Positions 33,640 to 60,579 of a stretch of DNA of 61,502 nucleotides are shown here, piece by piece; position 1 is the first letter of the stretch; every line of letters begins with the position of its first letter. The notes under the pieces were generated by a model, which searched no databases, had not been told where the DNA came from, and worked only from the letters and a program-made list of their open reading frames with translations. Origin of the DNA: Clavulina sp. PMI_390 (lineage: Eukaryota; Basidiomycota; Agaricomycetes; Cantharellales; Hydnaceae); the NCBI GenBank assembly GCA_015039315.1, contig WIDE01000147.1, forward strand, positions 1 to 61,502, given 5' to 3'. Position numbers and translations under genes: made by a program.

Positions 33640-33671
33640 TAGCGTCATTCATGGGGGTCGGGATGACGTGA
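33640..33671 (+). promoter_or_regulatory. conserved 32-bp block with inverted TGACG, transporter B
   Basis: The block begins TAGCGTCAT and ends CGGGATGACGTGA. CGTCA and TGACG form an inverted pair. A block of the same length and similar sequence lies at the same distance upstream of copy C. TGACGT is a CREB/ATF-type bZIP core. Confidence 0.5.
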
Positions 33672-33927
33672 ATACGCTCAAATGCAAAGGCAGGGTTTCT
33701 GTGTGGATCTGCCGGCGGGAGTTCCTCCGTCACCAAGCAAGTGTGACAAATAACGCGTTCATTCCCTTGGCCATTGGCACTGTGCACGCAACATCAATAC
33801 AAAAGCACCTCCGTCTTACTCATACCGAAAACGAGATGTAAAGGCTTCCCGATGCGTTTAAAACCACCCGCGTCTCGTGGTTCATCTCTCCCCTACCCTC
33901 TGCCTTCTATCTTGACGAAGGATAACG

Positions 33928-36391
33928 ATGTCAGTGCTTCAAGAGAAACAGGAATCCCACATTTCAGACGTTTCCACTATGGCGGCCGATACCTCTAGGC
34001 CCGCATCTACTGTGGTGTCAGCACCTACTAGTCCACCACAACAGGCACCACTTCAGGTCTCCAAACTGCGCTTCATCCTCATCTTTGTCTCTCTCATGCT
34101 CTGTATTTTCCTCTTTGCAGTAAGTTTCGGACCATTACTCATCCAAGTGAGGAGCTCGCATAAGGTGCTAATTTCCTGTCTTCATATTCACCTTCCCCTC
34201 CTCTCAAACATCACTGATAGCTTGACCAGCTGATTGTTGGTGTGTATTCAATTATCTCTCCTGTCTATTATGCATATACTCACACAGAGCCTCCCACAGC
34301 GACTGCCATACCAAAAATTACCAATCAATTCCACTCTCTGACCCAAATATCGTGGCTTGCTGATGGTAAGTAGTTTCCGATTATGCTAGCTTCCAGTCAC
34401 TTATTTAGTTCCCCTCTCCTAGGTTTTTTGTACGTGGCATTGCGCTTCAAAATGCATCAGCACCTAATGATCAAGCTGTAAAAATCTAGCGTGACCCTCC
34501 TTGCTTTTAACCTAGCCTTTGCTCAATGGCTTGCCATTTTCCCAGCTAAACATGTCCTTATATTTGCCGTCAGTATCTTTGAGGTATGCTTGCGTGTTTC
34601 TCTGGAAATTTAGTTTCTCGATCCTAAGCTCTCGTTTGGAAGGTCGGAAGCTTCATTTGTGGGATTGCACCCAATATGATCACCCTTATCATAGGCCGAG
34701 CAGTAGCTGGCCTTGGTGGGACGGGTATATTTAACGCATCCCTTATGGTAAGGATTGGCTGGTAACCTTCTATGCGCTGGGTCGATCCTTAATTGGGTCT
34801 TTTATCTCGACCTAGGTCATCACGGAATTGACTACGTTTGCTGAACGGGCCCGGTATTTCGGATTCATCGGCGTTTGGTACTTCTACACCTTTTCTGTTC
34901 AGTGGCCTGAATGAAATACTAATATGGCCTTCTTTCTTTTCCACCAGTTTTGCCATTGCCTCTGTTCTCGGGCCTCTGGTTGGGGGTGCGTTCAGCGACC
35001 ACATTTCCTGGCGCTGGTGCTTTTACATCAATCTTGTAAGTTCTCCCCTTCGATTTCAGTTTGTTTTGGGAAGCTCAATGCAAAGCTGGCTACTCGGTTG
35101 TCCCATAGCCTATTGGTGGTATTGCCCTCCTCCTCATCTGCCTCCTGGTCGAAACTCTCCCACCCTATGGGCGTTCCGCTACGTACCAAGGATACGGCCG
35201 CCATATGATTAAGCAGCTTGCCGAATGTGACTGGATTGGTGTGGTCATCATTCTCGCATGGGGCATCTGCTTCATCCTTGGGCTTGAGTGGGGAGGAATT
35301 GTCAAGTCGTGGAAGGACCCCAACGTCATTGCCTGCCTGGTGATGATCCCCGTATTGGGCGGACTCTTTTTTGCTTGGGAAAGTTATCTGGGCAAGAAAG
35401 GCATGCTACCCTTGCATGTACTAAGGGATCGGGATGTTGCTGGTGCCGCGTTCTTGAATATTTTTATGTGGACTGTTTATATGCTTTCGATATACTACCT
35501 CTCGGAAGGGTATCAAGCAATCTACAAGTGCGTGTGCCATTGTGATTTCTCCCGTATGACTTGCTTGCCGCTAAAACTTACTCTTCTGGGCTTTTGTTGC
35601 GCCTGCAATTAGCTCATCTGCCACGAACGCTGGAATCTCCCTCCTGCCACAGATCGCTACTCAAGTCTTCGTTTTGATATTTTCCGGGCGCGTCATCGCA
35701 ACTTATGGACGCACGTACTGGATTATTGCTGCTGGGCCGGTCTTCCTCGCCGTTGGCTCAGGCCTGCTATATTCTGTGGATTACCCAAAGCCCAAGCACT
35801 TCTATATGGGGTATTCAAGCCTTATGGGATGTGGTGTCGGGCTGGTGCTCCAGAATTCAATCATTGCCGTTCAATATGTCTTGTACGTCTGTTGCAGTTT
35901 TGCCTAATTCCTTAACGTATCGCTAACCTCGTTTGTCTCTTCCGCTTAGCCACAAGCAACCCTATCTCATCCCCCTCGGCACTGGCACCGTCACCTTCTT
36001 TGGGTTTATCGGTCGTAACGTGGGCATTTCCCTGGCGGGCTCAGTCTTTGGCAACATGCTCCAGAAGAACATCCTCAAATATGCTCCAAGCCTATCGGCC
36101 GATCTCGTCAAATCGATCCAGGCGAACGCCAATGCTGTGTGGACAGACGTTCCCGATGCTCTGCGTCCTGCGGTTCTTACGGCATACACCAAGACTCTGT
36201 CGTACGTGTTTATCATCGGCGTACCAGCCTCAATCATTGCCCTGGTAGGCGCGTTGGCGATGAGGAATATCAAGATGGATATGAGTCACGGTGGCCCGCA
36301 ACTTCCTGCCAAAGAGACGCCTAAGAACGACATTGAGGCAGCCCCTGAGGAGGGCGACAAGACTGCTATTGGATGTGGGAGCAAGCCATGA
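33928..36391 (+). CDS. MFS drug:H+ antiporter, DHA2 type (copy B)
   Basis: This is a paralogue of copy A with the same 11-exon layout: 33928-34119, 34221-34239, 34300-34365, 34423-34429, 34490-34583, 34643-34747, 34816-34877, 34948-35035, 35109-35527, 35613-35882 and 35950-36391. It encodes 587 residues. The TM1 and motif C signatures are kept ([19 protein letters not shown]). Exons 2 to 10 have the same lengths as in copy A, including the 19-nt and 7-nt ones. The region after TM11 differs from the other copies (ATYGRTYW in place of ARFGRSHW, and [10 protein letters not shown]). The frame is intact, so it is probably functional; the substrate may differ. Confidence 0.9.
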
Positions 36392-37521
36392 AGCGTCGCG
36401 GTTTCTTCTGAGCCTCTCGCTTTTAATCCACTTATTGGATGCGTCCCTTTCAAGCTATGCTTCAGCCATTCGGTGCCCGTTACATTTATCCAGTCTCAGC
36501 CTTCACATCGACCTTCCAGTGCTTCTATTCTCATCTCAATCACTATACACAGACCTCGTTTCCTGACTCGTTCACCAGATGGTCGCCCATTTCCTTTCTA
36601 TCGCATTCCCCATTACCTATTAAAAGATAATCTCTGAAGGAACGTACCTACATAAGAACAGAACGAGATAGTAAATGGCTCCGAAATAGATGGCCAAAGC
36701 AGTCGGTTCCCGAGATGGCTCAACTACAGTGCGCAGTATATACCGTTTCGTCTATCCTGGTGACTCGGTTTCTTCTATTTTTCTCGTCTCTGGTTAGGAC
36801 TGGAGGTAACATATTCAGTGGGAGCCGAATGTCTCGCGATCAAGGGTGAGGGAGTGGCCAGTATATATGTCGGCGCCAAGAATGCCCCTGGTCTATGTAT
36901 AGTCGTGCAACAAGGCTGAATGGTCAATCAGCCAACTGAGATGCAGAATTGAATAGCGCATACAGTAAAGTTCCCCGCCCAAACACATGTGGGGACGGGC
37001 ACCTTATACGTGTGCAGAATTACCTTGTCTCCGTCGGTGATGCATGAGCAGGAGAAAAAAAAAACGATGCTTCCCTGTCATCATCTATCTCGCTAATCAA
37101 TATGCCCCGCTGTCAGTGACGCGTACCTGGTAATAGACGGCAGGCCGGGATGACCCCCGGATTCCGGGATGAGACACCGGAAGCACCCCGGGATTGTGTT
37201 GAGTCAGTGTAATGAGGTCGCAAAGCCCTGTGGGCATCACTGGAATGACGCCCAGCGGCAGCCGTGAAGGCCCGTGTGTGAGTTGTGGAGGGGATAGCAG
37301 CTGAAAGTGAAGCTAAATGTGAGGGTCAGCTCAGCGGTAGTCATCTGGTGTGTTTGCGAGCTAACAAACCCCATTTGGCTGACGAAAGGATATTGGGATT
37401 GGTATTTACAAAGCACGATGAATCTGACGAAGCAACAAGGGCGCCAAAAGAATCCCTCAAAGTTATCAGATAGTAAGGCGCAGCTGTCGAGTTGAATGAA
37501 CTTTCCATTGATTGACTGGGG
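36392..37521. other. intergenic region between transporters B and C
   Basis: No gene was supported. CCGG-rich direct and inverted motifs cluster at 37140-37200. The conserved block of copy C begins at 37522. Confidence 0.5.
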
Positions 37522-37553
37522 TAGCGTCATATGTGAGGGCCGGGATGACGTGA
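37522..37553 (+). promoter_or_regulatory. conserved 32-bp block with inverted TGACG, transporter C
   Basis: This is the counterpart of the block at 33640-33671, with the same TAGCGTCAT start and CGGGATGACGTGA end. It ends 253 bp before the ATG, against 257 bp in copy B. Confidence 0.5.
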
Positions 37554-37686
37554 GCGGTTTGTATGCAGGGTCTTCTGCCGGGCAGGGCAGACACTCTCCT
37601 CAGCCTCAAGCGGCAAACGAACAACGCGTACAATGGCTTCGGCTCTTGTAATATTCCGGATCGAATGTCAGAAGAGCACTCCCGAC

Positions 37687-37709
37687 TGACTCACGGCCAG
37701 AACGGCGGG
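37687..37709 (+). promoter_or_regulatory. shared bZIP/CGG promoter motif, transporter C
   Basis: TGACTCA, a perfect AP-1/Gcn4-type core, is followed by CGGCCAGAACGG (CGG-N6-CGG), 119 bp before the ATG. CGG direct repeats are typical Zn2Cys6 targets. Confidence 0.5.
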
Positions 37710-37805
37710 CCCTCATAAAGTCCCGTGTTTTCGCCGACCCATCTCTCCTCATCTCCCCACCTCCCCTCCTCGTCGTCCATCTCATCTCATCTCATTGAAT
37801 CACCC

Positions 37806-40276
37806 ATGTCGGTGCCTCAAGAGAAACAGGACACCCGCGTTTCAGACGCCTCTACCATGGCCGTCGATGCCTCCAAGCCCACATCGAGTGCCGCACCAGC
37901 TCCGGCGGCAGTGGTTCCGCCGAACAGCGAAGTCGCAGATGCTCCAGCCAAGCCTGCTGGCCCACAAGCCCAGGCCCCTGTGCAGGTCTCCCAGCTGCGT
38001 TTCATCCTCATCTTCCTCTCCCTCATGCTCTGCATTTTCCTGTTTGCGGTATGTTGAAACGAATTCCTTATCAAATCGCGCCGAACGGTCCCACCCGATG
38101 CTGATTTTCTGCCATTTTTCTCCTTCCCTCCCCACGCCTCGTTCGATAGCTCGACCAACTGATCGTCGGTACGTCCTCGATCATCCACGCTGCAGCTGAC
38201 CATCGTACTGACAGATGACCGTCCACAGCAACCGCCATTCCAAAAATCACTAATCAGTTCCACTCTCTGACCCAAATTTCGTGGCTAGCTGACGGTAAGC
38301 TGCTCTTCTAAGGGCTCGTAACTAGCTTTCAATCCACTAAATCATCCTCTTCTCCTAGGTTTCTTGTGCGTAAAAAAATGGCTCTTATGTTTTGTGCCTG
38401 AATCGACCCAAACTGACTGATCTTCCCAATTTCTAGCGTGACCCTCCTCGCATTCAATTTGGCTTTTGCGCAATGGCTCGCCATCTTCCCTGCGAAGCAT
38501 GTCCTCATCTTTGCTGTCACCGTCTTTGAGATTGGCTCCTTTATCTGCGGTATTGCGCCCAACATGATCACCCTCATTATCGGTCGTGCCGTTGCTGGCC
38601 TGGGTGGCACCGGCATTTTTAACGGAGGCCTCATGGTAAGAAACATCACCGCCTCCTTTTGGGCGCAAGGAAGAATGCTAAATTTGTGTGCTTCAATATA
38701 CACAGGTCCTAACTGAATTGACAACTTTTGCCGAACGAGCCAAATACTTTGGATTGATGGGCATCTGGTAAGCTTTATTCCTTCCTGGCGACCCTGCTGG
38801 GCAGGAAACTGACGAACTCGGATCTCTATTTTACCAGTTTCGCCCTCGCATCCGTTCTTGGACCCTTGGTTGGTGGCGCTTTCAGCGATCACGTTTCTTG
38901 GCGCTGGTGCTTCTATATCAACCTCGTAAGTTAACCTGCTGAAAAGAGTCAGGACAAAACTAATGTATTGCCTTATTCTCTAGCCTATCGGTGGTATTGC
39001 CCTGCTCCTCATCTTCCTCCTCGTCGAAACCCGCCCACCTTATGGACGTTCAGCCACATACCAAGGATACGGTCGCCATATGCTCAAGCAGCTTGCCGAG
39101 TGTGATTGGGTGGGCGTTGCTATCATCCTGGCATGGGGTATCTGCTTCATCCTCGGGCTCGAATGGGGTGGGATCGTCAAGTCGTGGAAGGATCCCAACG
39201 TGATTGCCTGCTTGGTTATGATCCCTGTTTTGGGCGGTCTGTTCTTTGCCTGGGAAGGCTATATGGGCAAGAAGGCCATGTTGCCACTGTACATGCTCCG
39301 CCATCGGGATGTAACTGGTGCCGCGTTCTTGAGCATCTTCATGTGGGCTGTCTTCATGCTTTGCGTGTACTACCTCTCTGAGGGATATCAGGCGATCTAC
39401 AAGTATGTGCTGTGCCTCCCTACTTTTCTAGATGGTTTTTTCTAATCATTTCTTTTCTTTTCTCATCCTAGCTCGTCTGCCACAAACGCTGGTATCTCAC
39501 TCTTGCCCCAGATTGCCACCCAGATCTTTGTCTTGATCGTGTCGGGTCGTATGATCGCTCGTTTCGGTCGCTCTCACTGGATCATCGTTGCTGGTCCCGT
39601 TTTCCTCGCTATCGGCTCGGGTCTGTTGTACTCTGTGGGCTATCCCAAAAGCAAGAGCTACTATATGGGTTATTCGAGCATTATCGGCTTTGGTATTGGT
39701 TTGGTGCTGCAAAACTCGATTATTGCAGTGCAATACGTCTTGTAAGTCTCAAAATTACCTCGCCGTGGCTTCTGCTTCCGGTCACTAATATTTTTCTCGC
39801 CTCTACTTAGCCACAAGCAACCCCACCTCATCTCCGTCGGTACTGGCACTGTCACTTTCTTCGGTTTCGTCGGTCGTAACTTGGGCATCTCCCTTGCCGG
39901 CTCCGTCTTCGGTAACATGCTCAAGAAGAACATTCTCAAAGACGCTCCTACGCTGCCGCTCGAGATTGTCAAGGCCGTGCAAGCGAACGCAAACGCTGTG
40001 TGGACAGTCGTGCCCGATGAGTTGCGGCCTGCAGTGCTCACTGCATATACCAAGACCCTCTCGTCTGTATTCCTAATTGGTGTTCCTGGCTCGATCATTG
40101 CGCTCGCGGGCGCATTGGCGATGAGGAACATCAAGATGGATATGTCTCATGGTGGTGCCCAGCCTGCTGCCAAAGAGACGCCGAAGAAGGACGTTGAGGC
40201 AGCTCCCGAGGAGAGTGCAACACCCACTATCGACGACGCCGAGGACGAGAAGACTGAGGATGGGAACAAGGCTTGA
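37806..40276 (+). CDS. MFS drug:H+ antiporter, DHA2 type (copy C)
   Basis: This is a paralogue of copies A, B and D, with 612 residues in 10 exons: 37806-38048, 38150-38168, 38229-38294, 38359-38365, 38437-38635, 38706-38767, 38838-38925, 38984-39402, 39472-39741 and 39811-40276. The exon 38437-38635 (199 nt) equals the sum of two exons (94+105) in copies A and B, so the intron at FE/VGS is missing here. The N-terminal hydrophilic tail is longer (81 codons in exon 1). Transporter signatures are intact ([20 protein letters not shown]). It is most similar to copy D, for example [20 protein letters not shown] in both. Confidence 0.92.
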
Positions 40277-41515
40277 GAGGATTATTCACCTTCTGGCTCC
40301 ATCCCCACCCAGTTATGCTTTGGACGTTTTCTTTGTTTCACATTCATCTCATCATATTGGGCTCCGATTGCTTTGCCCATGACTTGTGCGCTCTCATCAT
40401 CATTGATCTTCATGCCAATTACGTCCCACGCACAGCATTAGCCTCATTGTCGCTTCTTCTCACTTCTGCTATTCTTTATTGCCTTGCTGGCCAGTTACCT
40501 CCCCATCTTCACGATTCCGTTCTTCTCCCATTCTACCTTCACTGCACTTCTAATACCCTTCCACTCCTCTTTGTGTGGTCTCCCCCATTCTTGGCCTTCG
40601 GCTTTGCCATTGTTCGTTACATAGATAGATGACTGCTGAGGCTGCGTGGCGATGATTCTGTTATTCACAGTTAGGTCGCACTTAGCTACAAACCAACAAT
40701 TAATAATCGCACTGAATAGTGCGTGTATCAGTATCGCGCGTATGAAGTCCTATTCGCAGTTTGCAAAATTCGGCCTTTCGTTCAGCACCAGAAGGCGCTT
40801 CGATGACTATCACGTGGTCTCGTTTTTACTTCGTACTCCTCAACGTCGGTCACCGCTACAAATCTTTATCGAGTATCTGGCTCGCCTAAGAACTTAGCTT
40901 GTCCGCTCAAGCTGCTAGTTTCCAGCCATGAAGCTGGGTGCCACCCCTAACTCCTCTTTGGTGTTGGTTCTGAAGCATGAATGTCGATGAGCAATAACTG
41001 CTTTGGAGAGTGACCTTCCTTGTAGCCCTTCGCGCCCTCCCTCTTTAGAGGCGCAAGCACGCCTTAAGAAATACAGATGCGCCAAAGAAGCAAGTACTGA
41101 GGTACCTGTTATACGTAGATGAGTGAGGAACAACAGTTGTGGATGAGGAGGATATACTTGCCAACAAGGAGCCGCTCAAGAGAACCGAGATAGAATATAA
41201 GGAGTTAGTTGGAAAGACAAGCTCCCATGTCCATTTTCTTGTTGTAGATGCATTGAGGTTCTTCATCCATTGGCCACCAGCTATAACACGAGTTGGATAC
41301 ACTGTACCTTGCTCGTGAGCCATTCTCAGTGACTCCATGTAGAACCCTCCAAAGATAATCATCCAGGATCTATTGCACGGTTGGAGATTGGGAATCTTGT
41401 GAACTACCATGGAATCAGTCCTCGTTTGTGAGTTACTCTTCATCATGGCAATTGTAGGCTAGTATTTCTCTGCTGACAATGTTTTTCGGTCCTACTTATC
41501 ACTAACTAAGAGTAG
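40277..41515. other. intergenic region after transporter C
   Basis: It holds the 3'UTR of copy C, then sequence without a supported gene. It leads into the relic of the HMG-box gene at 41516. Confidence 0.5.
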
Positions 41516-41626
41516 ACTCTAGGGTTCCTGGAGATGCCCAAAAGTTCAAGGAGAAACCCAAAGTTAAAGAAGATAGGTCTGTGGCGAAATTACGGCCCTC
41601 TGGTGGCAAAATTTCTACTATTACAA
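41516..41626 (+). pseudogene. decayed exon fragment of the HMG-box protein gene
   Basis: An acceptor-like CTCTAG is followed by sequence that aligns with exon 4 of the intact HMG-box gene at 46681-46800. The two share the exact string AAGGAGAAACCCAAAG, then AAAGAAGATA against AAGGAAGATA, GTGGCGAAA against GCGGCGAAG, and GGCAAAATTTCTAC against GCCAAGGCATCTAC. The fragment has lost a codon block, and no upstream HMG-box exons were found. It lies 1.2 kb after copy C, as the intact gene lies after copy D. Confidence 0.6.
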
Positions 41627-41926
41627 CCCAATTGCTGGTCCTAAGCCGGGTAGGGCCCCACTTCCTCGACCCCATAGCGGGAATGGAATTACGAGTCTAC
41701 CGAGGTTCGGCTCTCGTAATCCTAGATGTAACACTGAAATAAGCACACCCATGGCAACCATCCGGTACGGAGTCTCACACCACCTGCGGAGCGGCGCGTA
41801 CGATGCATTTTCTCATATTGGAACAGTTTCAACCCCTTCACACAAGGCCCTCGGTACTAAATCCATCTATTGGGGCGGGCAACAGCACAACTCCCTCGAC
41901 GTACCACCCAGGATATGACTCCATTC

Positions 41927-41948
41927 TGACTCACGGTCAACCCAGCGG
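41927..41948 (+). promoter_or_regulatory. shared bZIP/CGG promoter motif, transporter D
   Basis: TGACTCA is followed by CGGTCAACCCAGCGG, 129 bp before the ATG. The second CGG is spaced slightly further than in copies A and C. Confidence 0.45.
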
Positions 41949-42055
41949 GCCGCTCCTTCCGCCCCTCCCAATGATCTCTTTTAAACTCTGATGCACATGC
42001 CCACTACTTGTCCAAATCCCCAGCCCCCAGATCACCTCATTTCGTTGGGTCACCC

Positions 42056-44527
42056 ATGTCGGTGCCTCAGGAGAAGCAAAGTGCACATGTTTCGAACGCC
42101 TCCATCGTGACTATGGGTGCGTCCGACCCCAGAGTGACGGTGCAACCAGCGTCTGCTGCTGCCTCTCCAAGTAGCCCCATTGTAGCCTCATCAGTCCAGC
42201 CCACCAGCCCACAATTGCAAGGCCCCACCCAAGTCTCGAAATTGCGTTTCATATTTATTTTTCTCTCCCTCATGCTATGCATTTTCCTCTTTGCGGTACG
42301 TCCGAACAATCCCTGATTGATTCCCGGCCGAGCCGCGGCCGATGCTGATTTTCTGCCATTTTGCCTTCCCTCTTCCATGCGTCGTACGATAGCTCGACCA
42401 GCTAATTGTTGGTATGTCTCTGATCGCGGATACTATACCTGATTCCCTTGTTGACAATCAATCGTCCTCAGCGACCGCAATCCCGAAAATCACCAATCAG
42501 TTCCATTCCTTGACGCAGATTTCTTGGCTAGCAGACGGTAGGGGTATCTTCGACTGAATTCAGCTGGCTCAGACTGACTTGATCGACTTTACCTACTAGG
42601 TTTCTTGTGCGTAATTGGTTCTAACTTCGCTCCCAACGAGCCTACCAACTCACTGTTCTGTACAACATCTAGCGTGACGCTCCTCGCATTCAATTTAGCC
42701 TTTGCGCAGTGGCTTACCATCTTCCCCGCAAAACATGTCCTCATCTTTGCTGTCACCATCTTTGAGATTGGCTCGTTTATCTGTGGTATTGCTCCTAACA
42801 TGATTACCCTCATCATCGGCCGTGCTGTTGCTGGCCTGGGTGGCACGGGAATTTACTATGGGGGGCTAATGGTATGTATCATCCTTTCAATTCATTTACC
42901 TGTTGGGACAAACACTTAATTGTCCTCTGGGAACCACTTAGGTCCTAACTGAACTGACAACTTTTGCTGAACGGGCCAAGTACTTCGGCTGGATGGGCAT
43001 CTGGTACGGTTTATTCTTTTTGTCCTCCTACTGGGATAGGAATCCATGATCCGGCTCTCTACTTCACTAGTTTCGCCCTCGCTTCCGTTCTTGGACCTTT
43101 AGTTGGTGGTGCATTCAGTGATCATGTTTCCTGGCGCTGGTGCTTCTATATTAACCTTGTGAGTCGACCTATGTTGTCGGGCCTGTTTGGGGACTGATCC
43201 AGTCCAATCCGACGCCTCATTCTCTCTAGCCTATCGGTGGTGTTGCCCTGCTTCTCATCTTCATACTTGTCGAAGCCCGCCCGCCGTATGGGCGCTCTGC
43301 CACGTACCAAGGATATGGTCGCCACATGTTTAAGCAGCTCGCTGAATGTGATTGGGTTGGTGTTATCATTATCCTTGCGTGGGGTGTTTGCTTTATCCTT
43401 GGGCTCGAGTGGGGCGGAATCGTCAAGTCATGGGATGACCCCAATGTAATTGCCTGTCTAGTGATGATCCCTGTCTTAGGTGGGCTGTTCTCTGTGTGGG
43501 AAGGCTATATGGGTAAAAAGGCCATGCTGCCCTTATATATGCTCAGGCACAGGGATGTTACTGGTGCTGCGTTCTTGAACATTTTCATGTGGGCCGTCTT
43601 TATGCTTTGCTTGTACTATCTCTCCGAGGGATATCAGGCTATCTACGGGTCTGTGTTTCCTACTCTCTTCCCCTACCCACCTGGCGCCTTGCTTACCTGT
43701 TTCGTGTTTCCTAGCTCATCTGCAACGAATGCCGGTATTTCCCTCCTTCCTGAAATTGTTCCCCAAATTTTGGTCTTAATTGTGTCAGGACGCATGATCG
43801 CTCGTTTTGGCCGTTCTCACTGGATTATAGTTGCTGGGCCTGTGTTCCTCACGATTGGATCAGGGCTGCTATATTCTGTGGGATATCCGAAGAGCAAGAG
43901 TTATTATATGGGTTATTCCACTATTATTGGTATTGGCATCGGGCTGGTGTTGCAAAATTCAATCATTGCAGTGCAATATGTCTTGTGCGTCTGAGTCTCC
44001 CTCATGCTTGTCTTTGCTATATTAACCTGTTGCCCGCCCCGCGTAGCCATAGTCAACCCCATCTCATCTCGGTTGGGACTGGCACCGTCACTTTCTTCGG
44101 TTTCGTCGGTCGCAACTTGGGCATCTCCCTCGCTGGTTCCGTCTTTGGAAACACGCTCAAGAAGAACATCTTGGAAGATGCCCCAAGCCTGTCCCCAGAG
44201 ATCGTCAAGGCTGTTCAAGCAAACGCGAACGCCGTGTGGACAGATGTGCCTGATGCCTTGCGCCCTGCGGTGCTCACGGCGTATACGAAGACTCTCTCAT
44301 CTGTGTTTCTGATTGGTGTGCCTGGTTCGATCATCGCACTTGCAGGCGCGCTGGCGATGAGGAACATCAAGATGGACATGAGTCACGGAGGTGCACAACC
44401 CGCTGTCAAGGAGACGTCGAACAAGGACGTCGAGGCGGCTCCTGAGGGGAGTGTCACCCTCGTCACCAACGCAGCGGAACAAGACGAGAAGATGGAGATC
44501 GAGGCTAGATCTGGCGAGGAAGCGTGA
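42056..44527 (+). CDS. MFS drug:H+ antiporter, DHA2 type (copy D)
   Basis: This is the fourth tandem paralogue, with 616 residues in 10 exons: 42056-42295, 42393-42411, 42472-42537, 42600-42606, 42673-42871, 42942-43003, 43071-43158, 43230-43648, 43715-43984 and 44047-44527. Like copy C it lacks the intron at FE/VGS. The 19-nt and 7-nt exons are kept. At the exon 8/9 junction the conserved Asn codon of the other copies becomes Gly. I chose the ATG at 42056 because MSVPQEKQ aligns with copies B and C; an in-frame start at 42008 is possible. The long acidic C-terminal tail ends EARSGEEA. Confidence 0.92.
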
Positions 44528-49674: not shown

Positions 49675-51546
49675 ATGCAGAGCGAGGAGCACTACGCCAA
49701 GAGCTCCCTTCTGACCCTCCCATTTGAGATTTTTGTGCGAATTCTCGGAGACGTGGACATGATTTCACTCATCAAGCTATCTTGGGTTAGTCCGTCTCGT
49801 ATCATCTTAGCACGCCTGATCAAACTTCTTGCTATCATTCAGACGTGTAAAGAATTCAATGCTTTTGTAACAACTGAAAGATACCTGTGGCAGTTGGTTG
49901 TGCGAAAGCAACTGTATGACGAGCTGATACCTGTGGGCTCGCTGCCTCTGTCAGAGATGAGCCTACCGCAGCTCTTTTCGTACGCTACCCGGAAGAGCCG
50001 GTTGTTTGATTCTATGCGCCGAAATTACGACGGAGTGAATTGTCGTCGGATTGACATCCATCTTACGTTACCAGACACGCCTGAATACTTCGAGTTTTCC
50101 ATGAAATACCTTCTCAGCCCAAAGCTTTTACCAGGTGGCCGGTACATTTTAGGCCTTATCGTAGGAGATTCTACTTCGCTGATCTGCTGTTGGGACCTAT
50201 ACATACCCCCAATTCAGCATGGCACTATGCTCCCTGCAGCTACCTTGCTGCTCCCTAGGGCTAAGAAATTACTCCTTTCTAGAGTGTTATGCGCACCAGG
50301 TCGTAGCCTACAGGATAGAACCTTCCCGTTCGCCGTTTTCAAGGCTACAGGGTAAGTGTGCTGTGCCCAGAACTCAAATGTGTGCCTGTACTGATTAGAT
50401 GGCACGGGACAGTGATCATAGCGAAATAGCCATTCTGCAGCTTCGTACCTCGCCAGTCGCTCCTCCAACTCTTAATATCTCCGCAAGCAGGAAATGGAAT
50501 CACTATGTCACTCCAACCTCCATTGTAGGAGATTGGGTAATAATCCAAGGCCTTACTGAAGGTGGAGAAAGCGGTTTCGTCTGGAACTGGAAATCAAATT
50601 ACGTGGAGCAGCTTTCTTCGTCTCCGGGATGTGTTCTCTTGACCGCCTGGGGAGTACTTGCGCTCACGGGCACAAGTGGACCCCATGAGCAACAGGAGGA
50701 GCGGGGCTTGGATGCTAGTGATGAGATGTTGGGCCTCACAATCGCCCAGTTTCGTTCGCACACGCGGTACCCCGCCAGCGGTGTTGCATCCCTTGCACAA
50801 GGTGATTTTGCCGAGAACCTTCTCTCCACGCAACAGGTTTCACAATCTGCCTCCGTATCGGCTGTCTCATCAATATACTCAACGACGGGGTCGAAAGCCA
50901 CATCTGGCCGTATTGCTGAACCAGTTCTGCATAGTGCAGAAGAGGCAATATTTTTCATAAAGGACGTGAAGTCTACTCATGAGGCTTGGGAGCAGCGTAT
51001 GTTTTCAATTCGAACTCCATTTGAGGTTTCTTGCTCGTATGCAACGGGTACATCTAGGGTTTCGGTGGACATCATCGAGCGGCATACCGGCTTATGCGAA
51101 TGGAGCTCCCCACATGGGTTAAATTTTGATTCTTCGGATGATTCCGAATCTGCTCTTGCTCAGGTGCGTTTAGCGCTAGGGGGGAATGTTTATTCAGGGA
51201 CGACACATGATGCCCCAGCAATTCAAGAGAGACGCTCATCTTTAGATCTTCTCAATCGAGCACCTTTATTGGAGCCCCAAGAGCCTTTTTCCCCGGTTCA
51301 ATCAATGGTAAGGGCAGTTGGTCGGTGGGTGTACATCAGAGGGCATATCAAAGCTACGGTCCTCTCCTGTTCGTGAACTTTCCCAGCCGCATCTATGACA
51401 GTAGTCGGATCAGATGGGCAACTGAAACAGGGTTCTGTGCTCGTTCTGGCACATGGATTTTCAGGCCACCGACGGCTTTCGCAATTCCTCCTTTGCTAGA
51501 TAGCGCAGGGCAATATCTATCGCTTATCCTACTGAAGTTTGATTGA
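49675..51546 (+). CDS. F-box protein, copy 1 (probable 1-nt frameshift near the 3' end)
   Basis: F-box proteins bring substrates to SCF ubiquitin ligases. Exons 49675-49785, 49843-50351 and 50413 onward encode an F-box (about 12-50, LLTLPFEIFVRILGDVDM then LSWTCKEFNAF). A long C-terminal region matches copy 2 (PGGRYILGL, LICCWDLYIPP, GDWVIIQ, WNWKS). The acceptor at 50412 was chosen because it gives GDHSEIAILQ, parallel to GHSEISVLQ in copy 2. After EPQEP the frame ends early at 51376, while the continuation to 51546 (FCARSG ending LSLILLKFD) lies one frame over. Copy 2 has one extra base between these points, so a 1-nt deletion or a sequencing error in the T5C4 run is likely. A 32-nt intron would also restore frame but is too short. 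Confidence 0.7.
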
Positions 51547-52814: not shown

Positions 52815-52820
52815 TATAAG
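52815..52820 (+). promoter_or_regulatory. TATA box of repeat-precursor gene 1
   Basis: TATAAG within CCTATAAGACCAT is conserved exactly at 57971 upstream of gene 2, in a block of shared sequence. With the 5'UTR intron that follows, its distance from the ATG is reasonable. Confidence 0.6.
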
Positions 52821-52920
52821 ACCATGCACGCAGCGGGGCCTGAACTCCTCACTCCACCCGGTCAACTCCTCCTCTTCGGCTCTCTTCGCTTTTCTCTGAG
52901 ACACTAGTGCACTGGTTGTA

Positions 52921-52979
52921 GTAAGTGGCTGCACTTTGGTGTAGTTCAGCGCTTGATTATCGCTGACATCTCGTACCAG
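52921..52979 (+). other. 5'UTR intron of repeat-precursor gene 1 (candidate)
   Basis: GTAAGTGG to TACCAG, 59 nt, is followed by CTTGTCG. Gene 2 has GTAAGCCC to CATTAG then CTTGTCA at 58077-58126. The matching flanks (CACTGGTTG before, CTTGTC after) support a conserved 5'UTR intron. Confidence 0.55.
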
Positions 52980-53126: not shown

Positions 53127-54787
53127 ATGCGTGCCGCCACCTCTGTTGCCCTCATTGCCCTCCTGGCCGCCCCCGTGTTCGCTGCTCCGATCTCCTCTAC
53201 TCCTGTTGGGGGGGAGCCTAGCATCAGTACTCAAATCATCTCCTCTGCTGCTGGTGGTGCGGCGTCTGGTGCTGTTGGAAACCTTTTGAGCAAGGTTAGT
53301 GTCTTGATATGAACAGTTTCGCTTGGAAGAGGGAGTCTGACTGCCCCGTTTATTCCTCAAAAGCTCGAGAGTCTCTTCAGGCGCGACTTCGATGAGCGTT
53401 CAACTGGCGCTCTTACGAACATCGTTAAGCAGGCTCAAAGCCTTTCAGCCGCCGACAAGGCCACGGTCAAGACTGCCCTCGTGAACAAGATCAGCACTCT
53501 CCAAAACAAGCGTGACGATTCAGAGCTAGAGGCTCGTGCACCTCTCTCGTCTACTAGCCTTGGAGGGTCACTCCTCTCATCCGCTGCTGGTGGAGCTGCC
53601 TCTGGGCTCGTCGGGAACCTTCTCGGCGAGATCGAGAGTCTTTTCCGACGTGATGACAGAGAGCTCGAGGCTCGTGCTGGCCTCGGTGGTGCTATTGCGT
53701 CCTCTGTCGCTGGTGGCGCAGCATCCGGTCTTGTTGGTAACCTACTGGGCGAGGTTCGTTTCCTGCTTATGTTTATGTTGTGCCTTCAAGTAGCCAATCT
53801 TAGTGCCTCACCCTATAGATTGAGAGCCTGTTCAAGCGGGATGATTCCGCTCTTGAGGCTCGTGCTCCCCTGTCATCGACGAGCCTTGGCGGGTCACTTC
53901 TTTCGTCTGCTGCTGGTGGTGCTGCCTCTGGCCTTGTGGGAAATCTTCTCGGCGAGATCGAGAGCCTGTTCCGACGTGGCGTCACTGACGTTCACGATGA
54001 GGAGCTCTACGTTAAGCGGGATGTTAGCTCTATCAGCAGCATCATCACCCAAGCACAAACGCTCTCGGCTTCCGACAAGGCGACGGTCAAGAGTGCCCTA
54101 ATGAACAAGATCGGGACTCTGCAAACGCCTTCGAAGCGTCTTTCTGCCAGCGGCGCTGCTGGGACCGCGCTCGGTGGCCTCGCTTCAGTCGGCGCTAACT
54201 CGATTGTCAGCGGGTTGCTGAGCTCGATCGAAAGTTTGTTCAAGCGCGATGAGGCTGAGGCTTTGATGGCGCGCGAGGAGACGATGATGAAGCTGCATGC
54301 TATGCAGCGTCGCTCGCCTCTCTCTTCAACTAGTCTCGGTGGGTCTCTCCTTTCGTCAGCTGCTGGGGGTGCGGCATCGGGCCTGGTCGGAAACCTGTTA
54401 GGCGAAATCGAGAGCCTTCTCAAGCGCCAAGATTCCGAACTTGAGGCGCGTGCCCCCCTGTCAGCCACGAGCTTGGGCGGTTCTATCGTCTCTTCTGCTG
54501 CGGGTGGTGCTGCATCGGGCTTGGTGGGCAACTTGCTTGGAGAAATCGAAAGCTTGTTCCGACGGGACGAGGCTGAGCTTGAGGCCCGCGCGGGTCTCGG
54601 TGGTGCTATCGCTTCTTCTGTCGCTGGTGGTGCAGCGTCTGGGTTGGTCGGCAACCTGCTTGGCGAGATCGAGAGCCTATTCCGACGCTCAGAGGAGTTT
54701 GGGTATGTTCTGATTGCTTTATTTCCAAGTTAAGCAGGCACTGATATATTTCTCCTCACACTTGATAGGATCAATGAGCTTGACTAA
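53127..54787 (+). CDS. secreted multi-repeat precursor with KR/RR sites, gene 1
   Basis: I do not know a named family. Exons 53127-53294, 53364-53753, 53819-54702 and 54769-54787 encode 486 residues. A signal peptide (MRAATSVALIALLAAPVFA) leads to about eight copies of a core unit. The full form starts APLSSTSLGGSLLSS, continues AAGGAASGLVGNLLGEIESL and ends F-[KR]R; a shorter form starts AGLGGAIASSV. Each core ends at a dibasic KR or RR, the Kex2 signature. Between cores lie acidic spacers of the type D-x-ELEAR. Two copies of a second module (TNIVKQAQSLSAADKATVK, ending in KR) are predicted helical. The last 19-nt exon encodes INELD. The layout fits fungal Kex2-processed repeat proteins, like mating-factor or repellent precursors. 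The peptide function is unknown. Confidence 0.85.
53364..54702 (+). repeat. in-frame protein repeats of gene 1
   Basis: Core copies start near 53538, 53683, 53863, 54313, 54451 and 54589, with a diverged copy near 54148. DNA identity between copies is high but concentrated in the G/A-rich AAGGAASGLVGNLLGEIESL part, and synonymous differences are frequent, so selection on the peptide is likely. Confidence 0.75.
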
Positions 54788-55194: not shown

Positions 55195-57072
55195 ATGGGT
55201 CATAAAGAGACACCCTCACTTCTCACACTTCCCACTGACGTTTTCCTCCGAATGATTGATATCGAAGATGTGGATGTAGCCTCGCTCATCAAACTGTCTT
55301 GGGTCAGTCCGTCACAACCGACTCGGCACGCTTGCTGGAAATTGATATTGTTTCTCAGACTTGTAGAAAACTTAACACCTATCTGAGGAATAGCCGGTCA
55401 TTGTGGCATATGATTGTTCAGAAGCAGCTTTACAACGAGCTGATCCCTAATGGCTCCCTGCCTCTATCAGAGATGACCGCATCGCAACTTCTTTCGTGTG
55501 CTACGCGGAAGCTTCGGTTCTTCCATTCTATTCGTCAATCTCGCGATGTATACTGTCGTCGGATTGATGTTCATCTTTCCATATCGGATGGACCGGAATA
55601 TTCGCATTTCTCTGTTGATGAGCTCCAGTCTGCAAAGCTTGTCCCAGGTGGTCGATATATTCTAGGCCTACTGAAAGGTCCTGGGAGTTTGCTGATTTGC
55701 TGCTGGGATATCTATATCCCCCCAACTCGGCATGGTACTTTACTGCCGGTGACGACCTTGCTGCTCCCGAACACTGGAACCTTCTCGTTTTTCATGATCA
55801 CATATGCACCAGGGCGTAGCATACAGGACGGAACATTCCCTTTTGCTCTCTTGAAGATGGTAGCGTAAGTCTGAGTCATCATCGACGGGGGCCATGTGTC
55901 CAAGCTAATCAGACGATATATGCTATAGTGGCCATAGCGAAATATCTGTCCTTCAGCTTAATACATCATTGCCTCAGGCTCCTTACTTCAGCCTCGTCGT
56001 GACGAGAGAATGGGGCCGGGACATGATGCCAAGTTCTGTGGTTGGGGACTGGGTAATTGTTCAAAATCGCTATCGTGGTCAAGGAGGCGGTTGTATCTGG
56101 AACTGGAAGACTGACTCTGTGCATCAGCTCCTTTCGGATCCTAGGTGTGCTATGGTGACCCCCTGGGGAATCATAGCACTACTGGAGGTAAATACCACTG
56201 TAGGGCAACCAGCGGAGGATGGGAACCACAGTGAGACGTTGGCCCTTACTGTGACTCCTTTCCGTGTGGGGACCAACATTCCCATGGGCCCTACGGCTCC
56301 TCTTAAAACAGATAATTTGGCCCAAGACCATATCGTGATTCCGGAAGTTTCTCATTCATCTCTCACTTTCCCTACCTCGCGGATCTACTCGACAGCAGGA
56401 GCAAAATATACCCTCGGCCTTGTTGGCGAGCAGGTCATGCATAGTGCAAGAGAGTCAAGATTCTTCATAGAAGATATTCGATGGTTCCCACCACCATATA
56501 AAGCCTGGGAGCAGCGCAGGTTCTCTATTGATTATCCCTTTAAGCTTTCCTGCTCATATGCGGCTACCACATCCCGAAATCCAGCCGACATCACCGAATG
56601 GCACACTGGCCTGTATCACTGGGATTCACCCTCTCGTTCAAAGCTCAGTGCTAGCGGCAGACCTCGGAAGCCTGCTGTACGTAGGTTTTTTTCAGCAACT
56701 GAGAAGATCTTTCGTCGGCAAGCAGCAGGCTTTCATACCCCAGTACCACAGGACACCCCCTCCCCTCCACCAGTCCCCAACGGAGGCGCCATAATAGAGC
56801 CTCAAGAGACTTCTCTGACAAGTTCGCTTGTTGACGAAGGTGACTGGTCCGCGGACGGGTACCAAACCGCATATTCAGGCTATGATGACCTTCCACCAAT
56901 ACACTTCTCCGCCCGCACCTATGACGGTCGTAGTTTGATAGGGGCATTGCAAATAGACTTCTGCGCTCGTTCTGGGAAATGGCTTTATATAAGGCCGACG
57001 TATTCCGAAAGGCGACCTCTGCCAGCCAGCTCAGGAAAATGTTTGACACTCGTTATACTCAAATTTGACTGA
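55195..57072 (+). CDS. F-box protein, copy 2
   Basis: This is a paralogue of the gene at 49.7 kb, with 585 residues in three exons (55195-55302, 55359-55864, 55929-57072). The F-box reads LLTLPTDVFLRMIDIEDVDV then LSWTCRKLN. The C-terminal region keeps PGGRYILGLL, LLICCWDIYIPP, GDWVIVQN, WNWKTD, FCARSGKWLYIRP and LTLVILKFD. The frame is open throughout, so this copy serves as reference for the frameshift in copy 1. Introns are at the same codons in both copies. I chose the ATG at 55195 by alignment with copy 1; the frame is open further upstream. The C-terminal domain, probably for substrate binding, has no known name. Confidence 0.85.
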
Positions 57073-57970
57073 TGCGATCATTGCGCTCTATTTTCCGTCA
57101 TCATTCACTGTGTTAACCCTGTCAGTTGGGAGGGTTTCTAAAAGCAATGCTGTGGGGAGGTTACTACTGGGTAGGCTACGGAGGACTTGTTGCAGGTCGC
57201 GAAGAGGCTATTGGTACCAGAATAGTAAATCCGCGCTGGAAAGTATTGCCAACACTTCTGTGTTAAATAGTCGAGAGGAGAGTAACCCCCGCGCAGTTCC
57301 GCCCATACCTATGCGCATATGAGATAAATTCATACGATGACGCGAGAGCTGGACGACTGTTGAACTGTCGTGGTGGATCCAGCTCCTGGTGGGTACTGTT
57401 TATCACCTACTCTTGGTATCGACCCACATCTGGGCTGGACGGAATGAATTTCAGGGGCCGAGATGACTCCGAGAGGAAATTGAATTTCGTGAGGCCATAA
57501 GAGAAGTGATGGCGATATCATTCGCAAATCCGCCCAAGGGTATGGGAAGTGCCTCGTGGGGGAGGTTACAATTGAGTTCAAGTAGCATGTGGGGTAGGCT
57601 ATTGACAACCATCGTACCAGGATAATGACGTAAGATGTGAGTAATGATAAATATAGCACCATGAGCCAAGAAAATGGTATCGTCAGGGTCTATTGATGGT
57701 GCGGACGCAAAGGCGACGTGATGGTTGACACGTGATGATGTTTATTCCATCCGAATGCCTCCGAAATAAGCACAGTTGTCTACAGATGTTTGTGTCGTAG
57801 ATGCGCCCACACTGCCTGCCTTGCACCAGCCCAGAGCAATGGTATACAAGATGTTAATATTTCTCCCTAAATCCCTCAACTGCGGCGGAGTGATGCATGC
57901 TGCCTGAATACCATCATCAACCAGTTCCTCACTTCTGGTGTCCGAGAGAACGACAACTTAGTTCAAAACC
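57073..57970. other. intergenic region upstream of repeat-precursor gene 2
   Basis: No gene was supported. From about 57775 it aligns loosely with the region before gene 1 (GATGCGCCCA, CCTATAAGACCAT), as expected from duplication. Confidence 0.5.
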
Positions 57971-57976
57971 TATAAG
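57971..57976 (+). promoter_or_regulatory. TATA box of repeat-precursor gene 2
   Basis: TATAAG sits in the same CCTATAAGACCAT context as at 52815. Confidence 0.6.
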
Positions 57977-58076
57977 ACCATGGACCAGACGGGTCTCTAG
58001 CTCCTCACTTCACCCAGTCAACTCCTCTTCTACAGCTCCCTTCGTTCTTCTTTGAGACACTTGTGCACTGGTTGCA

Positions 58077-58126
58077 GTAAGCCCTCAATGAGCTCATTTG
58101 TTCATCACTGCTGACCTCTCCATTAG
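58077..58126 (+). other. 5'UTR intron of repeat-precursor gene 2 (candidate)
   Basis: GTAAGCCC to CATTAG, 50 nt, is the counterpart of 52921-52979. Confidence 0.55.
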
Positions 58127-58270: not shown

Positions 58271-60579
58271 ATGCGTGCTGCCACCTCTGTCGCTCTCATT
58301 GCTCTGCTTGCTGCCCCAGCCTTTGCTGCTCCGATTTCTTCCACTCCTGCCGAGGAAGAGCCCAGCTTCGGGACCCAAATCATCTCCTCCGCCGCCGGTG
58401 GCGCGGCATCTGGTGCTGTTGGAAACCTTTTGAGCGAGGTGAGTTTTTGACTGGCATGACGGTTCTTAAACAATGGGTAACTGAATTCGTTTCACGTCAC
58501 TGAACAGATCGAGAGCTTCTTCAAGCGTGGGCTCGATGAGCGCTCCACTGGTGCTCTCACCAACATCGTCAAACAGGCCCAGACTCTTTCGGCCGCTGAC
58601 AAGGCTACCGTTAAGACCGCTCTGGTGAACAAGATTAGCACTCTCCAGACCCCATCGAAGCGACTTTCTATCGGGGACGCAGCCGGCAAGGCACTTGATG
58701 GTCTCGCCAACGAAGGCGCCAAGACTGCCGTTGGCGGGCTGCTCAGCGACATCGAGAACCTATTCCGACGCGAAGATGGCGAACTAGAGGCCCGTGCACC
58801 GCTCTCGGCCACTAGTCTTGGGGGTTCTCTTGTTTCATCTGCTGCCGGTGGCGCTGCGTCTGGACTGGTTGGGAACTTGCTTGGAGAGATCGAGAGCCTG
58901 TTCCGCCGTGAAAGCATTGCCCTCGAAGTACAAGAGGAAGAGCCCAGCTTGGTCCCTGAAATTGTCACGGCCAACGGCGGTACCGTTCCTATTTCATCCG
59001 GGAACATCCTTCAATCGGTGAGTACCTGATTTCCAGGTTGAGCATCTGACTGGCGATCTCATTGCTCTATCACTCAATAGATCGAAGGATTGTCCAAGCG
59101 CTCTACTGGCGCCCTTACGAACATTATCAAGCAGGCGCAGACCCTGTCGGCTGCTGATAAGGCCACGGTCAAAACCGCTCTTATCAATAAGATTGGTACC
59201 CTTCAGACCCCCTCAAAACGTCTTTCTGTCGGTGACGCGGCTGGCAAGGCGCTTGGTGGTCTCGCTAACGAGGGCGCCAAAACGGCGGTTGGTGGGCTAC
59301 TTACCGACATTGAGAACCTCTTCCGACGTAATGACGCTGAGCTGGAGGCTCGTGCACCCCTTTCGGCTACAAGCCTTGGTGGGTCACTCGTCTCATCCGC
59401 CGCTGGTGGCGCTGCGTCCGGACTGGTTGGCAATTTACTTAGCGAGGTTAGTCTCCACCTCCTATCCTATTGTATCAAGTTCTAACTAACATATATTGTT
59501 AGATCGAGAGCTTCTTTAAGCGTGACGTTGGTCTGATCTTCCCAGATGGGAGTATTCCCATTATCCCTGTGATACGTGAAGGTGTCCCACTGGCGGCCCG
59601 TGCTCCCTTATCCTCTACCAGCCTTGGAGGTTCGCTCCTTTCATCTGCGGCTGGCGGTGCCGCATCTGGACTCGTCGGCAACCTCCTCGGCGAGATTGAG
59701 AGTCTCTTCCGCCGGGGGATCACCGACGTCCATGACGAAGATCTCTACGTCAAGCGCGATGCTAGCTCCATCACTAGCATCATCAAGCAAGCACAGACCC
59801 TCTCCGCGTCGGACAAGGCCACAGTCAAGACTGCCCTGGTGAACAAGATTGGCACACTTCAGGGCAAGCGTAGCTTGGTCTCGGAAGCTGTCCAAGGCCA
59901 CGTGAGTTTTTATCCAACTTTCAGGCTAAACCAAACTTGTTCACGAATCTGACGGGTCCTTTCTCCAGGGTATTCAGACTTCGGGTCAACTCGAAATCTT
60001 GGGCCGCTCTCCTCTCTCATCTACAAGCCTCGGCGGGTCTCTTCTCTCCTCTGCCGCGGGTGGTGCTGCATCCGGTCTGGTCGGGAACCTTCTTGGCGAG
60101 ATTGAAAGCTTATTCCGCCGTGATGTCGCCGAGGGCCATGACGAGGGGCTTTACGCTAAGCGTGGCACTAGTTCTATCTCCAACATCATCAAGCAAGCGC
60201 AGACACTCTCTGCATCTGACAAGGCTACCGTCAAGACTGCCTTGATGAACAAGATTGGAACGCTGCAGGGCAAGCGTGATATCACTTCCACCTCCACTGG
60301 CACTGGCTCGTCAATCCTCGCCCCCAACCCAGTGAGTTTCTCTCCTTTGACCCTCAATCTTCTATCAATGCTCAATACATTTCGGTGGCTCCCGTTCTAG
60401 GCGTTCAATACTCCAGAGACTGTGCTGCCTGGGTCAAACTTGACCCCTGAGCAGCTTGCATCTCTATTAGGCCTCGCCCGACGTTCAGAGGAGTTTGAGT
60501 AAGCCCTAGATCTTTGTGATGCCTAGCAAGCAGAGTGTTTACATGCTTCATTTCATCTAGGATTAACGAGCTCGACTGA
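58271..60579 (+). CDS. secreted multi-repeat precursor with KR/RR sites, gene 2
   Basis: Seven exons (58271-58438, 58508-59017, 59081-59446, 59503-59901, 59969-60331, 60401-60498, 60561-60579) encode 640 residues. The signal peptide (MRAATSVALIALLAAPAFA) and first exon length (168 nt) equal gene 1. There are four to five full core units ending F-[KR]R or FFKR and two copies of a variant core (GDAAGKALGGLANEGAKTAV, ending DIENLFRR). Four copies of the helical module (TNIIKQAQTLSAADKATVK, ending KR) are present, plus unique acidic segments. Most introns fall in phase 0 just before an I-E-S-F/L codon run or right after a module, so exons match repeat units. The final 19-nt exon again encodes INELD. 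Dibasic sites and ELEAR spacers are as in gene 1. Confidence 0.85.

Follow-up and report, generated by a model that had tools for sequence, protein, structure and literature searches.

The gene at positions 53127..54787 (forward strand) of the window, by which we mean the whole stretch of DNA analysed (61,502 nt; bases 1-61502 of contig C54 in a 39.4-Mb assembly of 301 contigs), most probably encodes a Kex2-processed repeat protein (KEP) precursor, one of a large and probably co-regulated family in Clavulina sp. PMI_390; we put the probability of this reading at roughly 0.78. Clavulina belongs to the order Cantharellales and the genus is ectomycorrhizal. The gene has the three sequence features of a KEP, namely a signal peptide, internal repeats and Kex2 sites between the repeats, from which a release of peptides is predicted.

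This layout is shared with the KEPs described by Le Marquer 2019 (PMC6339444), Umemura 2020 (PMC7329392) and Vogt 2022 (PMC9769878), which have a signal peptide, tandem repeats and dibasic sites between repeats, and which are presented there as widespread and largely of unknown function. Unlike the KEPs described in those papers, the window precursor alternates two unlike kinds of core and mixes dibasic with LxxR sites at its boundaries, and the Clavulina family has a DELD-like tail and a 5′ leader common to about 20 loci. Neither Clavulina nor the name stems Cantharell- and Sebacina- occur in the main texts of the three papers; Plicaturopsis appears among the genera given for one type of KEP (PMC7329392).

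A four-exon gene for a secreted repeat precursor

The precursor gene was modelled from its reading frame, GT-AG introns and the continuity of its repeat units. Four exons (53127-53294, 53364-53753, 53819-54702 and 54769-54787), running from the ATG at 53127 to a stop codon that ends at 54787, join to 486 aa with no Cys and 2 His. The putative signal peptide (MRAATSVALIALLAAPVFAA, 53127..53186) was recognised by inspection as a hydrophobic start ending AFA-AP, and other family members begin similarly. No identical protein stands among the 11 NCBI matches listed (the best has 70% identity over 80%), so that the gene may lack an annotation or have been given another model. Two diverged copies of one other gene flank it at 49675-51376 and 55299-57072 (71% DNA identity over 380 bases), the first with an F-box-like Pfam match just below the cut-off. 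Self-comparison of the window also finds four diverged copies of a 1.2-2.2 kb stretch within 30500-44450, about 74-83% alike in pieces.

Behind the signal peptide the order of units is A, B, A, A, A, spacer, B, A prime, spacer, A, A, A, tail, that is, 8 A and 2 B units in 486 aa, all read on the forward strand. Core A1 (53220..53384) is split by the intron 53295-53363 and ends in LFRR, and core B1 (53400..53513) ends in QNKR. Cores A2 (53538..53651) and A4 (53864..53977) are each flanked by LEAR and LFRR, and A3 (53676..53839), split by the intron 53754-53818, by LEAR and LFKR. The spacer GVTDVHDEELYVKR (53978..54019) leads to core B2 (54020..54139), which ends in PSKR, followed by A prime, a diverged A core (54140..54247) ending in LFKR, and by A5 (54314..54427) ending in LLKR. 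Cores A6 (54452..54565) and A7 (54590..54688) again lie between LEAR and LFRR. The C-terminal tail SEEFGINELD (54689..54787) contains the intron 54703-54768 and closes with a tiny last exon.

A typical A core reads [SG]LGGSLLSSAAGGAASGLVGNLLGEIESLF(R/K)R. The B core reads (STGALT/DVSSIS)(N/S)I(V/I)(K/T)QAQ(S/T)LSA(A/S)DKATVK(T/S)AL(V/M)NKI(S/G)TLQ and continues into a short linker ending in KR. In the window gene the A cores contain no K or R and no Tyr, Trp or Cys. A cores have a GRAVY of 0.8-1.4 and a charge of −1 to −2, and by inspection they carry a glycine zipper in the spacing of their small residues (S16, G20, G24; G13, G17). B cores have a GRAVY of about 0 and a charge of +1 to +3 in the window gene, and of −0.26 and −4 in the relative P0009.

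The preliminary description had placed a secreted Kex2-type repeat precursor here; the observation as a whole was confirmed, with coordinates exact to the base at both ATG and stop. The about eight core units counted there are the seven typical A cores plus the diverged one. Not mentioned there were the family and its leader, the two B cores with their KR ends at aa 106 and 293, and the DELD-like tail. SEEFGINELD is a conserved feature. The acidic ELEAR spacers it reported are present (ELEAR four times, ALEAR once), with the correction that they end in a single Arg (LEAR). This end fits the expanded Kex2 motif, and A cores lying between two sites would accordingly be released as peptides of 31-36 aa after trimming, where about 30 residues had been given. 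Its statement that no family with this core had been described agrees with database and literature searches: Pfam gave no match above the cut-off (best PF22155, 25 of 27 bits, E 1.6e-5), the PDB gave one chance-level match (E 0.49), and among the open-licence PMC papers listed in literature searches none described this family in its title or the start of its abstract.

A dispersed family in the Clavulina genome

The precursor gene belongs to a dispersed family of about 22 loci in this genome. An 86-aa query returned at least 83 matches and a B-A query at least 50, on contigs C54, C274, C113, C289, C144, C192, C117, C240, C292 and C248 and weakly on C247 and C33. At a profile score of 8 bits or more, 11 loci and the window together contain 119 A units and 45 B units. 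An intron splits 33 of the A units at one and the same place (after NLLGE or its equivalent), and this fixed position suggests that the intron belongs to the ancestral unit. The other 86 were classed as unsplit; by inspection four of them read into such an intron, which leaves 82 for the site counts given below.

A second member, P0002, lies in tandem with the first in the window itself (58271..60579, forward strand), with a leader of its own (core at 58064). The NCBI protein maps exon by exon to 58271-60499, where its model ends, with the stop codon at 60500-60502. The model stops at RRSEEFE on a GTAAGC donor. Splicing of one further intron, which we infer as the last splice of this gene, would add the INELD tail exon 60562-60579 and give RRSEEFEINELD, ending at 60579.

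Several diverged members came to light through the leader. The C90 gene (L031, 2300-2722) codes for a secreted protein in which a single A-like unit occurs, and has the usual intron place, a leader and a VDELD end; the protein has 117 aa in a one-intron model chosen from six enumerated, and the stretch directly before VDELD may be an unspliced intron. On C33 a B unit is found with LEAR sites and a VDELD end. At 129 kb on C289 (L053, C289:129643 region, reverse strand) a KEP-like gene with a 2-mismatch leader and a VDELD end has as its core the unrelated sequence DILSDAESAIDGFLQNNPLKR, which recurs in a nearly repeated form. Further diverged members found by their leaders are two on C248 and one on C247.

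Relatives outside Clavulina come mostly from metagenome sources, and the lists of protein relatives are lower bounds, with about 8000 candidates scored per search. P0011 from Plicaturopsis crispa is a repeat protein with AGGAA cores, ELELEAR spacers and single-Arg LFAR/LFSR ends. With P0011 as query, the matches listed were P0011 itself and P0001; as Ala and Gly abound in the part they share, common descent is only a possibility. By inspection, the last stretch of P0011 looks frame-shifted. Among the other relatives, P0025 bears the source label 'outer membrane lipoprotein SlyB', perhaps owing to its glycine zipper, and precomputed Pfam labels are attached to P0008 (PF20159) and P0018 (PF11022).

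Predicted processing sites are kept across old repeats

Arg in the window precursor is confined to the boundaries of the units. Twenty Arg residues are not followed by another Arg; 12 of them are dibasic, L/V/I/M stands at P4 in 15, and at least one of the two features is present in 18. Over 2000 shuffles of the mature protein the means were 2.1, 6.1 and 7.7, and the maxima were 7 for dibasic sites and 16 for dibasic or aliphatic-P4 sites, against the observed 12 and 18. The Arg pattern of the precursor is not due to chance. Throughout the family, in counts that leave out the diverged members L028-L031 and L053, all 82 unsplit A units carry Arg at P1 and 78 carry K or R at P2; the other four P2 residues (G, Q, Q, E) belong to units on contig C240. 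B ends, searched with a pattern that required Arg, show KR or RR in 44 of 46 cases (the remaining two are HAR and NGKQNATR), behind linkers as varied as QN, QG, QTPS, APGHA and APTNS. Sites directly before an A core, again with Arg required by the pattern, have L, M or I at P4 in 75 of 76 cases, 48 of them being ELEAR.

According to Outram and colleagues (PMC8528282), the Kex2 motif has Arg at P1, preferably Lys with wide tolerance at P2, and preferably Leu or another aliphatic residue at P4, LxxR being the expanded motif. Leu occupies P4 in LFRR, LFKR and LEAR alike; the Ala at P2 of LEAR is absent from the five P2 alternatives given in that paper. Both kinds of site, dibasic and LEAR, look like Kex2 sites.

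In 40 proteins not named Clavulina, a set with one Plicaturopsis protein and with some that overlap or are clearly Clavulina-like (P0043, P0050), 54 A-like ends were found and 51 have Arg within four residues. Dibasic ends make up 39 of these 51, the rest being LFSR (9), LFAR (2) and LVTR (1); the three ends without Arg are all in P0010. B ends with Arg within 14 residues number 27, and 22 have L/V/I/M at P4; VAAR, VATR, LSAR and VSSR occur, as do one KR and three cases with a second Arg directly after. At this boundary, then, Clavulina has KR where these relatives mostly have [LV]xxR. An expectation of the preliminary description, that dibasic sites should be conserved along with the repeats, thus holds in the relatives for most A ends and fails at the B ends, which are mostly monobasic.

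The age of the repeats was estimated from 53 A units with a profile score above 40 bits, a choice that favours conserved cores and likewise leaves out L028-L031 and L053. Between loci the synonymous difference (pS) amounts to 0.623 and the replacement difference (pN) to 0.097; within a locus, where some of the loci counted carry two genes, the values are 0.596 and 0.068. In the zipper (positions 9-23) pN/pS is 0.064 between loci and 0.039 within a locus, and the P1 codon has a synonymous difference of 0.605 with no replacements. A pS of about 0.6 with so low a pN indicates that most repeats are old and that their likeness has been kept by selection.

Some gene copies are young, a C54 and a C274 stretch being 94% alike over 2.1 kb. 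Such pairs, and the frequent homogenisation of repeat arrays, are what could be said for recent tandem duplication, in which the repeats would be alike through youth or homogenisation with no selection on the peptides. We give this explanation hardly any credence, as pS within a locus is close to that between loci and pN stays at 0.07-0.10. As a general account, recent homogenisation is ruled out by the synonymous divergence within loci.

The same counts bear on the idea that helical A and B units stay joined and act as one long protein of the wall or matrix, in which basic residues are features of the surface. AlphaFold models of exon 3 (with 9 sequences) and of one cassette (with 28 sequences) contain helices only, at mean pLDDT 53.6 and 53.8, with A-B blocks reaching 80-85 in the exon-3 model and 60-68 in the cassette model. 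The predicted helices, of locally fair confidence in one A-B stretch, would suit an intact protein, as would the three A-like ends of P0010 without Arg. With means of about 54, and A-B blocks at 80-85 in one model and 60-68 in the other, the structures do not decide between the readings. An intact protein nevertheless appears unlikely: P1 Arg is invariant and P2 basic in 78 of 82 units although synonymous sites differ by about 60%, KR is kept behind linkers that vary in length and sequence, and, with no protease involved, it would be difficult to account for a boundary that is KR in Clavulina and LxxR in relatives. The preliminary interpretation is to this extent supported, in that basic P2/P1 pairs kept across old repeats argue well for a Kex2 repeat-precursor architecture.

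Weighing against the KEP reading are those same P0010 ends, a weak amphipathicity of the A cores, and the fact that no kexin was recognised in exon-by-exon searches of the assembly, made without a fungal positive control. In these searches the kexin P-domain family gave 0 matches, two catalytic-His motif patterns also gave 0, and the subtilase family gave 8, of which the loci of 7 were checked for motifs and none was kexin-like. As Kex2 is generally found in Dikarya, we regard the missing match as a limit of the exon-wise search.

If the KEP reading holds, removal of the signal peptide would be followed by kexin cleavage behind LF(K/R)R, QNKR and PSKR, and behind LEAR as the LxxR form, with a carboxypeptidase trimming the basic ends of the cut peptides. 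This would yield eight A peptides, hydrophobic and with a glycine zipper (31-36 aa where they lie between two sites), together with two B peptides, acidic spacers of roughly 8 aa and SEEFGINELD as a free C-terminal peptide.

A conserved 5′ leader precedes the family genes

Upstream of the precursor gene, on the same strand, a TATA-like box (TATAAG, 52815..52820) is followed by a conserved 5′ leader (52845..52920, start approximate; core TGCACTGGTTG(C/T)A), a putative non-coding first exon, and by a putative 5′UTR intron (GTAAGT...CAG, 52921..52979), suggested by an alignment in which unconserved sequence stands beside the conserved leader. The 17 aligned upstream stretches usually have TATAAG, and some 25-30 bases on comes a leader whose end reads GTGCACTGGTTGCA|GTAAGT or nearly so; behind a variable stretch there is usually AG|CTTGTCG (one, on C292, becomes N after the leader). 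TATAA stands at this place in 15 of the 17, the exceptions being two C248 stretches of L030. The block looks like a 5′UTR exon with its intron, which would be transcribed with the gene. Within the window it is conserved at 52815-52979 and again at 57970-58126.

Searched against the genome, a 116-base leader query found 11 places, all at family members. A leader 25-mer with up to 3 mismatches gave 17 matches and the 19-mer TGCACTGGTTGCAGTRAGT with up to 2 mismatches gave 22, the reversed patterns giving 0 in either case. All but one of the 22 precede genes of the family kind; the remaining match (C13) lies inside an apparent reading frame of an unrelated gene. By a composition rule, 20 of the 21 loci have a secretion-type start 128-227 nt past the leader core; none was found at the C292 leader, which reads N there. 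An [IV][ND][ED]LD end lies within 4.3 kb of the leader at 19 of the 21, and was not found within this distance for one C113 copy and for C247. The one locus without a start and the two without a tail count against the KEP reading. No leader was seen in the stretch examined around the C192 copy, which brings the number of loci to 22. Against Rfam the leader region gave a single match that fell far short of the cut-off. The leader block is a possible regulon mark or translation element.

The C-terminal tail and the DELD proteins

A strict tail pattern occurs 19 times in 105 kb of sense strand from 15 loci and 0 times on the antisense strands; on both strands of the first 51 kb of the window (102 kb), taken as a control, it occurs 0 times. 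The 19 include one match in L011 that is not behind an acceptor and lies away from any recognised gene end, and one C248 match that enters the count twice because two loci overlap there. Most copies have the tail as a last exon of its own, about 19 coding bases directly behind the splice acceptor; the C144 copy and one on C289 run into it from the preceding exon without a break. Relatives end in AINELD (P0009, P0015), GVNELD (P0019) and NINQLD (P0026).

Similar ends are known from Serendipita (Piriformospora) indica, for which Zuccaro and colleagues (PMC3192844) describe 25 proteins ending in RSIDELD (29 with truncated ones), of 101-135 aa and Ala/His-patterned, 17 of them with raised expression in symbiosis; the same paper reports DELD ends in two ectomycorrhiza-regulated Laccaria proteins. 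Strong motif conservation was described for six S. indica DELD promoters (PMC13039781), and the function of the DELD motif is said to be unknown (PMC4620400, PMC3708536). As in these proteins, the Clavulina tail follows an Arg (R-S) in a multigene family, and both groups have conserved upstream motifs; the C90 gene, with its 117-aa model and VDELD end, comes nearest to them in size. Compared by description, the S. indica proteins differ from the Clavulina family in being His/Ala-patterned and in not being described in that source as repeat precursors. The window protein ends in RRSEEFGINELD, alike in R-S and INELD and not identical to RSIDELD, and with 486 aa and 2 His it falls outside the range of 101-135 aa with regular His/Ala. 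By the S. indica definition it is not a DELD family member, and the likeness is one of the tail only.

One may nevertheless ask whether the tail, co-expressed through the shared leader, would be the working or targeting part of a DELD-type symbiosis effector, the repeats serving as its carriers. Its presence at 19 of 21 leader loci, including those with diverged or different cores (C90, C33, C289 at 129 kb), speaks for this, as do the similar tail of the 25 S. indica proteins, 17 of them symbiosis-induced (PMC3192844), and the conserved motifs of the six promoters (PMC13039781). We consider the idea doubtful, as the likeness spans about five residues and the A zipper is strongly conserved too.

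Possible roles of the released peptides

For the peptides of the predicted KEP precursor, a coat is our first choice of function, with an effector tail and membrane damage next. We tentatively suggest, at less than even odds, that the A peptides self-associate through the glycine zipper and form a coat or membrane-associated layer on hyphae, by analogy with Rep1, which coats the hyphae of Ustilago. Compared by description, Ustilago maydis Rep1 resembles the window gene in that one precursor gives several similar peptides; those of Rep1 have 37 aa and act on the hyphal surface (PMC8528282, PMC6339444). Separate roles, as signals or in sorting, may fall to the B peptides and the DELD-like tail.

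The analogy would be a different one if the A peptides inserted into the membranes of competitors or plant cells, as in a membrane-damaging precursor like Ece1 of Candida albicans. Ece1, too, is a secreted precursor, cut by Kex2 into eight peptides of which one damages membranes; compared by description, this peptide, candidalysin, is single and unrepeated (three other moieties are repeated), whereas the A cores are near-identical and anionic (PMC7329392). The hydrophobic glycine-zipper stretch and the lack of K/R in the window's A cores would be in keeping with membrane insertion, which seems rather unlikely given the negative charge (−1 to −2), a zipper that barely varies and a largest 18-residue hydrophobic moment of 0.26-0.32, not clearly above shuffles (p 0.02-0.12) except for A prime (p 0.02). 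The amphipathicity check proposed in the preliminary description thus came out, for most cores, not clearly above shuffles. Its reading of the A peptides as membrane-active or aggregating stays at the level of a suggestion, the core being hydrophobic, anionic and mostly not distinguished by amphipathicity.

Chemical modification of the cores was also considered. In dikaritin-type RiPPs, UstYa-family enzymes would cyclise the cores after Kex2 release; the KEP architecture is held in common, and this genome contains UstYa genes. The 18 UstYa (DUF3328) matches lie on C2, C237, C60 and C198 and none on the contigs of the family, so that no such gene stands beside the precursor, and the window's A cores, 31-36 aa long, lack Tyr, Trp and Cys. 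A dikaritin origin is accordingly very improbable. A group of UstYa-family matches at 52-90 kb of contig C2, far from the peptide-precursor family, is a possible dikaritin-type cluster in its own right.

MiSSP8 of Laccaria bicolor is a Kex2-type repeat protein whose repeat differs from that of Clavulina. It is secreted by an ectomycorrhizal fungus, and its knockdown impairs mycorrhization (PMC7329392).

Implications for KEPs and DELD proteins

A broader proposal, possible and in our view less likely than not, is that shared 5′ leader and [IV][ND][ED]LD tail form the constant parts of a regulon in which the cores differ. The tail would be freed behind the last kexin site in the repeat members, and the cores would range from the A/B zipper through a single-unit protein of ~117 aa to a KEP with the DILSDAESAIDGFLQNNPLKR core. 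The Serendipita DELD end might then be the exposed remnant of a tail of this kind (R|SIDELD), and DELD proteins and KEPs might be one secretion class of root-associated basidiomycetes, with a tail for sorting, assembly or signal.

KR and LxxR at one boundary are evolutionary support for processing at single-Arg LxxR sites, and a scan for dibasic sites alone would overlook these. Should the peptides be released as predicted, one fungal genome would make A-type zipper peptides on the order of a hundred, all under one leader and with a sequence long held by selection. The family would also offer a testable link between the widespread KEPs, for most of which no function has been described, and the DELD tail of symbiosis effectors.
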